The notes under the pieces: model-generated
What the model was told of the DNA's origin: nothing
The model's database searches: none
The model's input: only the letters and a program-made list of their open reading frames with translations
Assembly (NCBI GenBank): GCA_015075745.1
Contig: JABTTW010000001.1
Coordinates: 1,364,001-1,428,000 of the forward strand
Length of the DNA stretch: 64,000 nt
Direction of reading: 5' to 3'
Origin: Planctomycetia bacterium
GTDB taxonomy: Bacteria; Planctomycetota; Phycisphaerae; UBA1845; UTPLA1
Position numbers and translations under genes: made by a program
Part shown: piece by piece, positions 6,557-12,707 of the stretch
Position numbering within the stretch: position 1 is the stretch's first letter
Layout of the letters: every line of letters starts with the position of its first letter

Positions 6557-6618
6557 AGCTCGCCGCGCCATCGCCGGCGGTGGCGAAGCCTGCCGACGAT
6601 CGAATACAATCCCCCATC

Positions 6619-7674
6619 ATGGACGCTGCCGCGCTGCGCATACTCGATGCCAACTTCAACCGGGCGCGCGAGGGTCTGCGCGTGCTGGAGGAGCATGCGC
6701 GATTCGCGCTGGATGACGCGGGGCTGACGGATTCGCTCAAGCATCTGCGCCACGAGCTGACGGCGGCGGGCGCGCGACTCCTGCCAGCCGACGCACTTAG
6801 TTGTCGGGACACGCCAGGCGACGTCGGCACGCAAATCACGACGGACGCGGAGCATCAGCGGGCGGACACAACGGCGGTCGCATCGGCCGCGGCGAAGCGG
6901 CTTGGTGAGTCGCTTCGGTGCATTGAGGAATATGGTAAGCTCGTCGATCCATCTGCCGCCGCTGCCGTGGAGCAGATGCGTTACCGGTTGTATTCGATCG
7001 AGCAGGAGGCGCTTTTGACTTCGCCGCGGCGCAGGCGGCTGCGCGAGGCGAGGCTGCACGTGCTCGTCACCGCCGAGCTTTGCAAGGGGGACTGGCTGGC
7101 GACCTGCGAGGCGGCGATGGCGGGCGGGGCCGATGTGATTCAACTGCGCGAGAAATCGCTGAACGACCGGGAGCTGCTGGCCCGGGCGGTGCGGCTTCGC
7201 GCGATGACCGAGGCCGCCGGGGCGCTGCTGTTTATCAACGATCGGGCGGACATTGCCCGACTGTGCGGGGCTGACGGCGTTCATGTGGGGCAGAGCGATC
7301 TTTCGGTCGCGGATGTTCGGCGCATTGCCGGGCCGACTGTGCTGGTGGGCAAGAGCACGCACAGCGCCGCTGAGATTACGGCGGCGATCGAGGAGCGGCC
7401 GGATTACATTGCGGTGGGCCCGATGTTCGCTTCGGCGACGAAGCCGGATGTACAGGTCGCCGGGGCGCGACTGCTCGAGAAGGCTGCCGGGCTTACTGAT
7501 CTGCCGATTGTGGCGATCGGCGGGATCACGGCGGGCAATGTCTCGGGGCTGGTTTGCCGGAGTCCGTTTGCGGTGGCGGTGAGTCATGCGGTGATCTCGG
7601 CGAGCGATGTGGCTACGGCTGCGCGGGAGATTCGCGGGGCGGTTTCGTGCGACGAGCGGCAAACTCCAAGGTGA
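6619..7674 (+). CDS. thiE: Thiamine-phosphate synthase with N-terminal ThiD2-like domain
   Basis: The 351-residue protein joins two modules. Residues about 1-135 resemble the helical ThiD2 domain (RILDANFNRAREGLRVLEEH) found fused to ThiE in several phyla. Residues about 140-345 form the ThiE TIM barrel, which condenses HMP pyrophosphate with thiazole phosphate. Landmarks are DVIQLREKSL, FINDRADIA, GADGVHVGQSDL, GKSTHS, YIAVGPMFASATK and AIGGI. The ATG at 6619 is chosen because the domain begins there; upstream codons in the same frame overlap the preceding gene out of phase. The last codons and stop lie inside repeat copy A. It is cytoplasmic and no other thiamine genes are in the window. 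Confidence 0.9.
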   Translation: MDAAALRILDANFNRAREGLRVLEEHARFALDDAGLTDSLKHLRHELTAAGARLLPADALSCRDTPGDVGTQITTDAEHQRADTTAVASAAAKRLGESLRCIEEYGKLVDPSAAAAVEQMRYRLYSIEQEALLTSPRRRRLREARLHVLVTAELCKGDWLATCEAAMAGGADVIQLREKSLNDRELLARAVRLRAMTEAAGALLFINDRADIARLCGADGVHVGQSDLSVADVRRIAGPTVLVGKSTHSAAEITAAIEERPDYIAVGPMFASATKPDVQVAGARLLEKAAGLTDLPIVAIGGITAGNVSGLVCRSPFAVAVSHAVISASDVATAAREIRGAVSCDERQTPR

Positions 7675-7735
7675 CATAAGGTGACACAGCCGATTTTTTT
7701 CGTTTGCAACTCTTGTGGCGGGCATGTGTTGGGGC
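7668..7735 (+). repeat. 68-bp dispersed repeat, copy A
   Basis: It begins AAGGTGACATAAGGTGACAC and ends GTGTTGGGGC. It differs from the inverse of copy C at only about five positions and is more diverged from copy B. It contains a direct GTGACA doublet and an A/T-rich centre (GATTTTTTTCG). It overlaps and supplies the stop codon (7672-7674) of the thiamine synthase gene. GTCGAAA-like microrepeats follow it. Confidence 0.85.
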
Positions 7736-7969
7736 AGGGTCTGGAAAAGTCGAAAAAGCGAAAAGTCGGATCGTCGAAATGGGGGAGAGTTTGGGCGGGA
7801 CGGGGTCGCGGGGGCATTTGAGAGGGTCCAGGAAAATGCAAGGGCGATGACACAGTTGGCGTCGGCGGTTGGCGTTGAGTGCGATCGGGTATCCGGCTTT
7901 TCTGGTACCGCTTGCTGACGCGCGCGGCTCGGATCGGGGCGCGGGACGCGCGCAAGTCGTGCAAATCCG

Positions 7970-8037
7970 AAGGTGACATATAGTGACACACGCGATTTTT
8001 TTCGCTGGCAAGTCTTGTGGCGGGCGTGTGTTGGGGC
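7970..8037 (+). repeat. 68-bp dispersed repeat, copy B
   Basis: Same orientation and length as copy A, without indels in the 68-bp core. It begins AAGGTGACATATAGTGACAC and ends GTGTTGGGGC. Similarity to the inverse of copy C continues for about 35 bp past the core (TTCGCGTTTTGGGTGGTTTT), so the full element is longer than the core. Confidence 0.82.
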
Positions 8038-8064
8038 GGTTCGCGTTTTGGGTGGTTTTTGGGT

Positions 8065-8106
8065 GGAAACGTCGAAAAATCGAAACGTCGAAACGTCGAA
8101 ATTTCG
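8065..8106 (+). repeat. GAAACGTC microrepeat tract
   Basis: GTCGAAA recurs at 8071, 8087 and 8095, with spacing of 8 bp between the last two. A similar but less regular tract (GTCGAAA, GCGAAAAGTC) follows repeat copy A at about 7748-7780. It appears to be part of, or a tail to, the dispersed element. Confidence 0.6.
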
Positions 8107-8263
8107 CGGACCCGGGGCCTGGGGCTTGAGGTTGGGATTGCCGAAAACTCGGACATCGCGCGCTAACTCCTGCGGGGCCGGGGTGGGTTTGTTTCCATTT
8201 GGTTAATACTTGCTCGGCGTGCGCGCGGGCGGCGTGAATTTGGGGGTGTCGGGGATTGCTGGG

Positions 8264-8293
8264 GAAGCCCATGGACGGCCGTCCGTGGGCTTC
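8264..8293. repeat. 30-bp near-perfect palindrome
   Basis: GAAGCCCATGGACGG is followed directly by CCGTCCGTGGGCTTC. The arms pair over 15 bp with one G-T mismatch and no loop. No T-run follows, so it is not an obvious terminator. Being self-complementary, it could be a protein-binding site or a repeat remnant. Confidence 0.6.
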
Positions 8294-8501
8294 GGACGGA
8301 TTGCAAGGTAATCCGCGCTAACGCCTTTGTTACGGTCGAACCGTTTTAAGGGAATACCGGGGCTCTCCAGTTAGTTATAATCAAGGTGGTCATGCACGAA
8401 CATGCTTCGTCGGTGACCCGTCAGCATTCCGGAATTCGCGTGGCCTGATTCGCGACTGATTCCACGATTGGGCCGACTTGCAGCAAGGGCCGGTGCATCG
8501 C

Positions 8502-10835
8502 GTGACAAGAACTTCTCACATTCGGCGTCGCGTGGCGACACTACTTCCAGCGCTTGTTGCGATGGCCGCGTATCTGTTGAGTCCGCCGGCGTCCACTCTT
8601 GCACAGTGCGAATACGACTGGCTTCCCGGCGCGGGTCTGCCGGGGGTCGATGGCGGGGTGTCGTCGATGATCAACTGGGACCCGGACGGCGACGGACCGC
8701 AGAGTGAGATACTTGTTGTCGGCGGGATATTTGAAGCGGCGGGCAATGTGCTGACGCGCCATGCGGCCGCATGGGACGGAATGCAATGGCGGGCGATGGA
8801 CAACGGGCTGTTCCGCGCTGGGGTCACTGCTCTTGGTGTTCACGACGGGCAGTTGTATGCGGGCGTCTATAAGAACAGCGACGGACTTCCGCCTCGCGTA
8901 CTTCGGTGGGATGGCGCCGAGTGGCAGACGGTCGGCAACGTGACGCGCGGTTCTTTGCTTGCGTATGTCAGCGCGTTCGCGAGCTTCAACGGGAACCTGG
9001 TGATTGCCGGGTCCCTTTCGGAGGTCGACGGCGTCTCGACGCCCGGGTTTGCGATGTGGGACGGCAAGTCGTGGCAGCCGCTGGGATCGGGGGTGTCGGG
9101 CACATCCCCACCGATCGGGTATGGGCTGCATGTCATGAATGGAGAATTGATCGTCAGCGGATCGTTCACGATGGCAGGCGGCATCAGCGCCAATCGCATC
9201 GCTGCATGGAACGGGGAAACGTGGCGTGCGCTTGGGAGCGGTTTCTCATCGAGCGGCGCATCGGCGTTTGCGGAATTCAATAGCGACTTGATCGCCGGGG
9301 GATATTTCTATGAAGCGGGCGGCATTGTCGTCAACAACATCGCTCGATGGGATGGCGTCGCGTGGCATTCCATGGGCGAAACCAACAGACCGGTTAATGC
9401 ACTGCGCGTGTTCAACGGGGAGTTGATCGCGGCAGGGGAGTTCGGAGGTGTAGGGGGCGTGCTGACTCAAAGAATCGCGCGCTGGAATGGTGTGACGTGG
9501 GACCATGTCGGCAAGGGGATCGGATACGCCCACGGCGGCAGAGTGTATGCGCTGGGCCAACTGGGCGGTGACTTGTACGTCGGAGGTACATTCGGCGTCG
9601 CCGGAGGCGGCGTTGATGTGCAGAACTTCGCCCGTTGGGATGGTAGCGAGTGGCAAAGAGTCGGCGACGGTCTCATCGGTCCAGTTTATTCGTTTGGCGT
9701 GTACGACGGTGAGTTGATTGCGGCCGGGATGTCTCAGTTTAGCAGCGAACTGAATATCAATTATCTGTCTCGATACCGAGACGGTCGGTGGTCGAGAATG
9801 GCCAGTCACGTCGGGATTATCGACGAGATGATGACATTTCGCGGAGACCTGATCGTGGCCGGTGTGTTTGGCGCGGTTGACGGCACGCCTGCCAACAGCC
9901 TGGCGCGATGGGACGGGCAGAGGTGGTCCGCGGTCAGTACCGCCCTTGCGCAGGATTCTCCTTTGACCATTGCCGCGATGGTGGAATACCGCGACGAACT
10001 CGTCATCGCGGGCAGCTTCAGCCGCGCCGGCGGCGTGGTCGTCAACAACATTGCCCGATGGGACGGGACGACGTGGCGTTCACTTGGAACAGGAACTTCG
10101 TGGATCGTACTGGCATTGGAGGTTTTTCAGGGCGAGCTCATAGTGGGCGGCAACTTCACCAGCGTGGACGGGCAGGACATTCCGTACCTCGCGCGATGGA
10201 ATGGGGAGACGTGGCTTCCCGTCGGTCCGCGACTGAACGGCGGCGTGTCGGCGCTGGCGGTCCACCATGACAAGCTGATCGTCGGCGGAGGATTTTCAAC
10301 GGCGGACGGCGTGCCGACTGCCAATGTCGCCGAGTGGGGTGGTGACAACTGGACGCCGTTGGGCACCGGGTTTGGCGGCTATGGAATCAACGACTTTGCG
10401 ACGTACAACGATGAACTCTACGCATCGGGTTCATTCTGGGTGCCCGACGGGAACTCCGGGTACATCGCTCGCTGGGACGGTGAGAATTGGAAGGATGTCG
10501 CCGCGAGTCTGGGCGGCGAAGTTTATGCATTGCAAGCGTGGAATGGCGAACTGGTGGTGGGCGGCGACTATCCCTACCCCCTTGAGTGGTCGACGGACAA
10601 TTACTACGTCGCGCGATTAGCGCCGGTCTGCCGGGTCGGAGATATGAACTGCGACCATGTGATCGACGCGGGTGATGTGAGCCGGTTTGTGAACGCCATT
10701 TTGGAGCCGGAGAACCTCACCGGGTGCGGTCGCTACATCGCCAATACGAACCGGGACGTATTCGATGACGGCACGTCACGGGTCGATGCACTTGATATCG
10801 CAAGCTTTGTTGACGCAGTGCTGAATCATCCTTGA
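8502..10835 (+). CDS. Secreted WDG-repeat propeller-like protein with C-terminal dockerin
   Basis: The product is about 777 residues from GTG 8502. Earlier in-frame starts are GTG 8493 and TTG 8478; the only Shine-Dalgarno-like AAGGG (8485-8489) is close to 8493, so the exact start is open. A signal peptide with RRR n-region ends near TLA-QC. Then come 13 units of about 45-50 residues with the pattern NGELI-x2-G-x-F-x3-GG and ARWDG-x2-W-x2-LG-x-G, which predicts beta-propeller blades. The C-terminus has a dockerin pair starting GDMNCDHVIDAGDVSRFVN. It is presumably extracellular and no enzymatic motif was seen. Flanking 68-bp repeats lie in opposite orientations on the two sides. Confidence 0.85.
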   Translation: MTRTSHIRRRVATLLPALVAMAAYLLSPPASTLAQCEYDWLPGAGLPGVDGGVSSMINWDPDGDGPQSEILVVGGIFEAAGNVLTRHAAAWDGMQWRAMDNGLFRAGVTALGVHDGQLYAGVYKNSDGLPPRVLRWDGAEWQTVGNVTRGSLLAYVSAFASFNGNLVIAGSLSEVDGVSTPGFAMWDGKSWQPLGSGVSGTSPPIGYGLHVMNGELIVSGSFTMAGGISANRIAAWNGETWRALGSGFSSSGASAFAEFNSDLIAGGYFYEAGGIVVNNIARWDGVAWHSMGETNRPVNALRVFNGELIAAGEFGGVGGVLTQRIARWNGVTWDHVGKGIGYAHGGRVYALGQLGGDLYVGGTFGVAGGGVDVQNFARWDGSEWQRVGDGLIGPVYSFGVYDGELIAAGMSQFSSELNINYLSRYRDGRWSRMASHVGIIDEMMTFRGDLIVAGVFGAVDGTPANSLARWDGQRWSAVSTALAQDSPLTIAAMVEYRDELVIAGSFSRAGGVVVNNIARWDGTTWRSLGTGTSWIVLALEVFQGELIVGGNFTSVDGQDIPYLARWNGETWLPVGPRLNGGVSALAVHHDKLIVGGGFSTADGVPTANVAEWGGDNWTPLGTGFGGYGINDFATYNDELYASGSFWVPDGNSGYIARWDGENWKDVAASLGGEVYALQAWNGELVVGGDYPYPLEWSTDNYYVARLAPVCRVGDMNCDHVIDAGDVSRFVNAILEPENLTGCGRYIANTNRDVFDDGTSRVDALDIASFVDAVLNHP

Positions 10836-10893
10836 TCGGGCACGGGCGGATTTGATTTCTTAATTAAGTATTTTTTTGGCGCGCGCGGGAGAT

Positions 10894-10912
10894 GCGACCC
10901 CTTCGGGGTCGC
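10894..10912. repeat. GC-rich hairpin
   Basis: GCGACCCC-TTC-GGGGTCGC forms an 8-bp stem with a 3-base loop, 58 bp after the dockerin gene stop. It could be a transcription end, but no T-run follows. A second small hairpin (GGCCC-TTC-GGGCC) lies near 10967-10979. Confidence 0.5.
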
Positions 10913-10980
10913 TTTGCGCGGGGTGGGCTCGCGGTACAGGGGCGATGCCCCTGCCTACTCACTTTTGGCCCTTCGGGCCG

Positions 10981-11160
10981 GAGGCAGGTTGATCGTGCCG
11001 ATTGCCGATTTATCGGGGTAGATGCTGGTTAATCAAATGGATAACGGGTTCATCGAGTCGATTGCAGGTTCAACGAGCCGGATGCGAGTTGATTGAGTTG
11101 ATTGCGGGCAACTGGGCCAGGTGCAAATCAATCGAACCGATGCGGGTTGGTCGATTTGCC
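10981..11160 (+). repeat. Degenerate tandem array with 20-bp period (about nine units)
   Basis: Eight consecutive 20-bp blocks from 10981 to 11140 keep register. The first halves vary around GATTGCGGGTT and the second halves around NATCGAGCCG. Examples are ATAACGGGTTCATCGAGTCG (11041-11060) and ATTGCAGGTTCAACGAGCCG (11061-11080). A ninth unit at 11141-11160 is shifted by about two bases. The period is not a multiple of three, and no frame across it gives a conserved peptide. Units are too diverged and too close together for a CRISPR array. Confidence 0.75.
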
Positions 11161-11162
11161 AG

Positions 11163-11188
11163 GCGAGATGCGCGAGGCGGCATCTCGC
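11163..11188. repeat. Hairpin after the 20-bp array
   Basis: GCGAGATGC (11163-11171) pairs perfectly with GCATCTCGC (11180-11188) across an 8-base loop. It directly follows the last unit of the tandem array. Function unknown. Confidence 0.55.
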
Positions 11189-11358
11189 GCAGGCAGCTGT
11201 GTAGGCGCGCACGGGGAGCAAGTGTGGTTGGTGCGAGGAGTACCAGCATGACCTTGGCGCACGAAACGATCAGCGTTCGGCAAACAGCCGTCGGAACTCG
11301 GCGGGCTGCCGCAGTGTTTCGGCCTCATGTCACTCAAAAAACGCCAAAATATCGAAGC

Positions 11359-11426
11359 GCCCCAACACATGCCCGACACGAGAGTTGCGAACGAAAAAAA
11401 TCGCGTGTGTCACCTTATGTCACCTT
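11359..11426 (-). repeat. 68-bp dispersed repeat, copy C (inverted)
   Basis: Read on the minus strand it matches copy A over all 68 bp without gaps and with about five substitutions. It is downstream of the WDG-repeat dockerin gene, while copies A and B lie upstream in the opposite orientation. Matching to copy B continues beyond the core on the GGGGC side. Confidence 0.85.
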
Positions 11427-11514
11427 CTCTTTTGGCGCGAAGTGCGTGCGAAAAACCGGCCGGCATGGGCGCGCGGCCGCTTGCGGACGATTGCCCACGG
11501 TGGATGTTCAGCCG

Positions 11515-11600: not shown

Positions 11601-12707
11601 ATGAGCAAGAATGCCAAAGCCGCGGTGATGAGTGCCTTCAAGGAAGCCATTGGAGTGCAGGAGTTCCCGTTGCCGGATGCGCTGGCGGCGGGCGACGTGC
11701 TGGTGAAGGTGACGATGGCCGGGGTGTGCGGGACGGACGTTCATCTGCACAAGGGCGAGCTGGCGGTGCCGCTGCCGCTGATCATGGGGCATGAGACGGT
11801 CGGCCTGGTGGAGGCGATCGGCGGCGAGGCGAATGACTGGCTGGGCGCGCCGCTGAAAAACGGCGACCGGGTGTCGTGGACTGTGGGCCGGCCTTGCGGC
11901 GAGTGTCTTTACTGCCGGCTGCACCGATTGCCGTCGCGCTGCTCGAACCGCAAGGCGTACGGGGTGAACACGCCGTGCAACCACGCGCCGCACTTTCTCG
12001 GCGGGTATGGGCAGTATCACCATCTGCGCGCGGGGACGGCGATCTTCAAGCTGGCGGACGATCTGCCGTCGGAAGCGCTCATCGGCGCGGGCTGCGCGCT
12101 GGTGACGTGCGTGCACGGCTACGAGAAGATGCCGGTGCGCTGGGCGGAGTCGTGCGTGGTGCAGGGGGCGGGGCCGGTGGGGCTGGCGGCCATCGCCATC
12201 GCATCGGACGCGGGGGCGCGGCCGATCATCGCCATCGGCGGGCCGAAGGATCGACTGGAGCGGTGCCAGCGCTTCGGGGCGGACATCACCATCGACATCG
12301 ACGAGATCAAGAACCCCGACAAGCGGCGCGGCATCGTTTTGGAGAACACCAACGGGCTGGGGGCGGACGTGGTGATCGAGTGCGTCGGGCATCCGTCGGC
12401 GGTGTCGGAAGGATGGCACCTGGCGCGCGACGGCGGGCGGTACATGGTGCTCGGGCAATACTGCGACGCCGGGCCGATCCCGCTGAACCCGCATTACATC
12501 ACCAAGAAGGAGCTGGAGATTCACGGCTCGTACGGCAGCGAGCCGCACCATTGGGCCAAGGCGCTGGAGTTCCTGCGGGCACGGGGGGACCGATTTCCGT
12601 TTCACGAGCTCATCACGCATCGCTACTCGCTGGACCAGGTGAACGAGGCGCTGGACGCAGTGGCGCACTGGCGGACGGGCAAGGCGGTGATTTGTCCGAA
12701 TGGGTAG
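11601..12707 (+). CDS. Zinc-binding medium-chain alcohol dehydrogenase
   Basis: This 368-residue cytoplasmic MDR-family oxidoreductase should use NAD(P). Catalytic zinc ligands appear as Cys43 (AGVCGTD) and His64-Glu65 (GHETVG). A structural zinc lobe has Cys99, Cys102, Cys105 and Cys114. The Rossmann motif GAGPVG is at 189-194. A long insertion after the structural zinc (NTPCNHAPHFLGGYGQYHH) and the general pattern recall the threonine-dehydrogenase-like or phosphonate-linked alcohol dehydrogenases, but the substrate cannot be assigned. The ATG at 11601 fits the family start; no strong Shine-Dalgarno precedes it. It is preceded by the repeat-rich gap and followed by the GGTGGGC repeats. Confidence 0.87.
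   Translation: MSKNAKAAVMSAFKEAIGVQEFPLPDALAAGDVLVKVTMAGVCGTDVHLHKGELAVPLPLIMGHETVGLVEAIGGEANDWLGAPLKNGDRVSWTVGRPCGECLYCRLHRLPSRCSNRKAYGVNTPCNHAPHFLGGYGQYHHLRAGTAIFKLADDLPSEALIGAGCALVTCVHGYEKMPVRWAESCVVQGAGPVGLAAIAIASDAGARPIIAIGGPKDRLERCQRFGADITIDIDEIKNPDKRRGIVLENTNGLGADVVIECVGHPSAVSEGWHLARDGGRYMVLGQYCDAGPIPLNPHYITKKELEIHGSYGSEPHHWAKALEFLRARGDRFPFHELITHRYSLDQVNEALDAVAHWRTGKAVICPNG

Follow-up and report, generated by a model that had tools for sequence, protein, structure and literature searches.

The BOX elements of Streptococcus follow the plan boxA-boxBn-boxC, are thought to be non-autonomous and are predicted to form stem-loops if transcribed (PMC3049150). TIRtrons carry genes for RAYT-type transposases between long inverted repeats, and these repeats are also met alone, as dimers and in clusters (PMC3733652). 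The usual substrates of RAYTs are the GTAG-tagged palindromes that flank them (PMC3733652). In the present study we analysed a repeat family of a planctomycete, CORE-Z, of which no earlier description was found in the literature searched. A 68-bp core that brackets a dockerin gene is, in our view, likely to be the heart of a ~95-bp module (CORE) of a non-coding, composite, dispersed intergenic element, built on the plan (CORE-spacer)1-4 - Z and private to one species.

The window, the whole 64-kb stretch of DNA that was analysed, contains three copies of the core (A, B and C). A sequence-only reading had described three 68-bp copies, with A and B direct and C inverted, and this arrangement was recovered by both a repeat search of the window and a count of the doublet that marks the core. 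Copies A (7659-7735) and B (7961-8037) were found as direct repeats with 86% identity over 77 bp, and A and C as inverted arms (7656-7735 and 11359-11438; 88% over 80 bp). The similarity of B and C outside the core, also noticed earlier, was confirmed as inverted arms of 104 bp at 82% (7962-8065 and 11331-11434). The GGTGACATAWRGTGACAC doublet occurred at three sites in the 64 kb at 0 mismatches, against a chance expectation of 0.02 even at up to three mismatches. The window contains two composite elements, A-B-Z on the forward strand and C with a weak Z on the reverse strand, with the following features.

6589..7674, forward strand: thiE-type gene (ThiD2 plus thiamine monophosphate synthase, TMP-TENI), left flank
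7668..7762, forward strand: copy A, first CORE module of the left element; its initial TGA is the thiE stop
7763..7967, forward strand: A-B spacer, a degenerate (GTCGAAA)n tract plus a shared module (...TTTTCTGGTACCGCTTGCTGACGCGCGCGGCTCGGATCGGGG...) that recurs in other arrays
7968..8064, forward strand: copy B, second CORE module of the left element
8066..8101, forward strand: 8-bp tandem (GTCGAAAC)n tract; the octamer is present in related genera, unlike CORE or Z
8154..8226, forward strand: module Z at the right end of the left element (nhmmer E 3e-11)
8502..10835, forward strand: dockerin beta-propeller gene, bracketed (Rax2/DUF5122 repeats)
About 11205..11271, reverse strand: weak module Z at the right end of the right-hand element (E 0.1, plus sequence)
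11334..11428, reverse strand: copy C, lone CORE module of the right-hand element, facing A and B
11604..12707, forward strand: zinc-binding alcohol dehydrogenase (ADH) gene, right flank

As had been proposed, copy A supplies the stop codon of thiE, the frame being closed by the TGA at 7672-7674 inside GGTGACA. The thiE product is a ThiD2-thiamine phosphate synthase fusion, and a glucose/sorbosone-dehydrogenase-like dockerin gene upstream of it is syntenic in congeners. The proposed absence of a transposase also held: none was seen between the arms among the ORFs and predicted genes of the window, and the dockerin propeller gene is the sole large gene there. This gene belongs to an expanded family, with 14 matching stretches in the host genome.

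The copies were then counted in the host assembly (5.01 Mb in four contigs) and studied in the sequence stretches around them. BLAST with copy A alone gave at least 43 matches (40 of 162 candidates scored). The pattern GTGACA-N4-GTGACA, at up to one mismatch, had ~174 sites in the host genome vs three control sites; ~50 of them carried one mismatch and 124 were exact, 89 being of the TAAG type and 35 of the TATA, TACG or TATG types. The 124 exact copies fall into 103 arrays on three contigs, 56 on the forward and 47 on the reverse strand. The species-private modular repeat family of this planctomycete, with ~103 exact arrays in 5 Mb, is dense enough to influence how intergenic regions and the ends of genes are built.

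The family appears private to one planctomycete species, as far as tested. When 60 relatives were scanned, the exact pattern was absent from the same-genus genomes G001 and G002 and from 57 other relatives, and a more distant genome gave one stray match. A stricter 21-base form was absent from 84,980 other species genomes (its own genome excluded) and from viral contigs, and a 199-base CORE-Z consensus query matched relatives almost solely in the (GTCGAAA)n spacer. The 8-bp (GTCGAAAA/C)n arrays found within the elements (window 7745-7768 and 8066-8101; L186-L191) are also present in G001, G002, G004, G009 and G014, and several of those in related genera stand directly after gene ends. This octamer is an older, family-wide repeat.

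Alignment of 108 copies showed conservation from ~-30 to +95 relative to the doublet; in a subset, weaker similarity extends further upstream. The best conserved columns were the GTGACA doublet and the AA...GTT positions, although the perfect doublet of the alignment is partly by construction, since the aligned copies were gathered with that very pattern. Two main forms of the middle were seen, one GC-rich and one with a T-tract. The central T-tract noticed earlier is found in only 43 of 107 copies, A, B and C among them, and so does not mark the whole family. Within arrays a related variant, GGTGACAATAGGCGAAAAAAG, is met repeatedly. Nearly every sampled array has one to four tandem COREs of ~95 bp, followed on the same strand by one Z of ~70 bp, which is weak in some of them; the ends of the element are unlike, with CORE on the left and Z on the right. 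An extra shared module (GAATGATCCATCGTGAGACATGAATGGCGAGG...AAGTAGCATGTCCCC) follows Z in L003, L022, L027, L091, L098 and L116.

Comparison between arrays at unrelated sites showed that their homology ends near the start of CORE or the end of Z. L073 and L076 have 987 bp in common at 92%, beginning at the first CORE, and L082 and L105 have 634 bp in common at 91%, up to the 3' end of Z, showing that multi-module stretches have been copied to new places. The element may have spread in a non-autonomous (MITE-like) manner through an enzyme acting in trans, and arrays may have lengthened by tandem duplication or by recombination between CORE copies. The term mobile is taken here from the dispersed homologous units only, since the analysis found neither a target-site duplication nor a transposase partner nor an empty site. 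A 2,378-bp duplication with 99.6% identity was also observed in the host genome (G000), at C1:735853-738229 and C1:2874544-2876920 (L204 and L205). It contains a CORE and a 523-aa gene, with its left edge in another GTAG-like repeat; this recent duplication shows that some route exists for copying a gene along with a repeat.

We next mapped the copies relative to genes called with a codon-usage gene finder, which was checked on the window. None of the 107 mapped copies lay inside a predicted gene. Among the first-in-array copies (n=83), 50 come after a co-directional gene, as against 32 that do not, and where the neighbouring gene is within 80 bp, all 14 of 14 follow a co-directional stop codon. 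The genes downstream of copies point in either direction about equally often. As read from the sequence, the GGTGACATAAGGTGACAC form has a stop codon in each of the three forward frames. An insertion next to the end of a gene would be tolerated because the left end of the repeat restores a stop. COREs in reverse orientation give open frames (..CHLMSPS..) that lengthen neighbouring genes N-terminally (L124 6176, L106 4724 and similar cases), and these extensions are likely to be an annotation artefact. Such repeats may thus supply both stop codons and spurious N-terminal extensions, and annotation should be read with this in mind.

As with BOX, the CORE-Z element is composite and high-copy, with a fixed module order and one tandem module in variable number (PMC3049150). 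However, the repeated module here is at the left end with a single Z at the right, the spacing is far larger (230-520 bp), and CORE lacks structural support for stem-loops of the kind predicted for BOX. The likeness to BOX is one of working plan, and CORE-Z is not taken to be BOX itself. As with MITEs, by the definition in PMC3049150, the element is short, non-coding, high in copy number and scattered over unrelated sites, but its CORE and Z ends are unlike and form no terminal inverted repeats, no target duplication was seen, and it is not AT-rich. GTAG-tagged REPs and BIMEs are likewise abundant intergenic mosaic repeats, and in this host RAYTs and GTAG REPs occur among the CORE arrays (PMC3733652, PMC2817692); CORE, in contrast, is ~95 bp long rather than a 20-40 bp palindrome, is preceded by GAAG or CAAG, and is not the end of a RAYT unit. 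Taken together, the sequences are best read as those of a new, species-private, BOX-like or MITE-like repeat family.

For the dockerin locus, the sequence-only reading had offered two views, a non-autonomous mobile cassette or intergenic REP/MITE elements that happen to lie on both sides of a gene. The cassette view found no positive evidence, since the number of array pairs was at chance, the arms are not nearest relatives and no empty site was seen. Array pairs closer than 5 kb numbered eight vs 10.1 expected by chance. In mutual kinship, A, B and C ranked 22nd-71st of 106, showing that they are not each other's closest relatives. A second copy of the bracketed dockerin unit was not found, and the closest congener relative of the dockerin protein is 40% identical and encoded at another locus, ~135 kb from thiE. 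Both same-genus genomes keep the upstream neighbour of thiE but have a different downstream neighbour, so synteny breaks after thiE, and the ADH gene is at another place in congeners. Because both flanks of the locus are different in congeners, no empty site for the A-to-C segment was obtained, and the locus was rearranged in all relatives checked. No target-site duplication was seen by eye in the flanks of CORE and Z, at element junctions without an empty site to define them. Thus the bracketed dockerin gene is probably not a mobile cassette; the elements on its two sides appear to have been acquired independently, and it is no demonstrated cargo of theirs.

The chance view comes close to the data. 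Many intergenic copies in both orientations, and close pairs at the chance number, agree with it. Seven of the eight pairs within 5 kb are convergent, however (label-shuffle P = 0.0005; random-placement P 0.012), and this bias is not explained by a pure chance arrangement. With diverged copies added, 10 of 11 pairs within 10 kb are convergent, in a set found partly via RAYT searches. The census of exact copies contributes two further pairs, a divergent one at 7.7 kb and a convergent one at 9.9 kb. The chance view had also been tied to a segment conserved in place across relatives, where we found a rearranged locus.

The convergent bias raises the alternative that CORE-Z arms are the terminal inverted repeats of larger elements which move together with their contents, the 1.5-kb RAYT brackets being autonomous and the dockerin bracket one of several non-autonomous forms with cargo. 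Profile search of the host genome gave 12 RAYT (Y1_Tnp) genes above the cut-off, five of them within about 600 bp of a CORE. Three (L062, L064 and L065) lie inside convergent brackets of 1,489-1,530 bp, which resembles the TIRtron arrangement, and a fourth lies in a 4-kb convergent bracket together with an IS3-type transposase pair (L124 3835-5135). TIR-flanked RAYT relatives with dispersed TIR families have been described (PMC3733652). Other brackets hold PEP-CTERM genes, a dockerin/SDR/isochorismatase stretch, an AhpD-like fragment and a membrane protein, the names being a reading of translations except for the window protein and one PEP-CTERM protein. Two PEP-CTERM paralogues, whose DNA is in parts 82-87% identical, each occupy a convergent bracket of their own (L060/L069, C1:1193342-1195696; L105 11676-15192). 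We considered these two as one cassette duplicated at a second site and rejected this, as the gene orientation is opposite and the surroundings are unlike.

The unit ends tell against this alternative. The RAYT units already have their own GTAG-tagged inverted ends (GTAGCCACGGGT... in L062, L064, L065 and L066; GTAGCCAGTGGC... in L061 and L067), and most arrays have no RAYT. The TIRtron expectation that the inverted repeats are the unit ends failed: the ~740 bp that the RAYT units have in common lie inside the arms, and the L066 unit, 92-93% identical, has no CORE in the 1.5-kb flanks searched on each side. Within one bracket the arms are mostly not each other's nearest kin, and RAYT loci carry them in reshuffled combinations; from one of its brackets to the other, the PEP-CTERM gene is turned round with respect to the arms; and no duplicated bracket was found. 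Without the RAYT-containing brackets, just four convergent exact-copy pairs within 5 kb are left. No autonomous parent with CORE or Z ends was recognised in searches of the Y1_Tnp and Y2_Tnp families, and an IS91/helitron-type Y2 transposase was dropped as a candidate because the host genome had no Y2_Tnp match. We therefore regard terminal inverted repeats as an unlikely explanation of the arms. A more specific form, in which the arms work in pairs as inward-pointing ends of composite elements able to capture and move genes for secreted proteins (dockerin, PEP-CTERM), with the RAYT-bearing 1.5-kb units active, is quite improbable; if true, this would be a transposon type with modular arrays as its ends. 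The convergent bias around RAYT and accessory secreted-protein genes is in any case a concrete and testable oddity.

A second alternative is that CORE is a cis-acting regulatory or chromosome-organising site, in which the doublet, a direct repeat with a 10-bp period, would bind a protein and arrays would serve as insulators, terminators or organising sites. The conservation of the doublet and AA...GTT columns, the 10-bp period tandem GGTGACATAA and the same-direction proximity to gene ends are consistent with such a role. However, conservation of the doublet comes partly from how the copies were collected, absence of CORE from congeners argues against an ancient conserved site, the strand bias of 56:47 is not strong, and downstream genes show no preferred direction. 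Sigma-70 promoter and terminator patterns were not above shuffles, and no covarying hairpin was found. A regulatory site is thus rather improbable, and the dispersed BOX-like or MITE-like repeat is preferred.

The RNA-level function that had been suggested from the doublet and the T-tract was not supported either. CORE had no Rfam match, alifold gave only a 6-pair hairpin, located in the near-invariant doublet, and for the best (second) predicted hairpin pairing was below that of shuffled controls, with no covariation; a structured RNA or hairpin was rejected on these results. At inspection, CAAC...GTTG also suggested an integron attC-like site, but this reading was set aside since the pairing is not conserved.

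Finally, a REP/REPIN family served by the host's own RAYTs is highly improbable. RAYT genes stand close to COREs, and a 17-bp GTGACATAAGGTGACAC, preceded by SAAG, could form an imperfect hairpin; however, no covariation supports the second predicted hairpin, CORE follows a GAAG or CAAG tag, and both array-adjacent RAYT types lie between GTAG-tagged palindromes of other sequence, which are the usual substrates of RAYTs (PMC3733652). Reading the RAYT unit ends, with L066 free of CORE in its 1.5-kb flanks and the arms reshuffled, ruled out CORE as their cognate REP. The two RAYT types each have a separate GTAG-tagged palindrome, and five of six units stand just 3' of a Z module.
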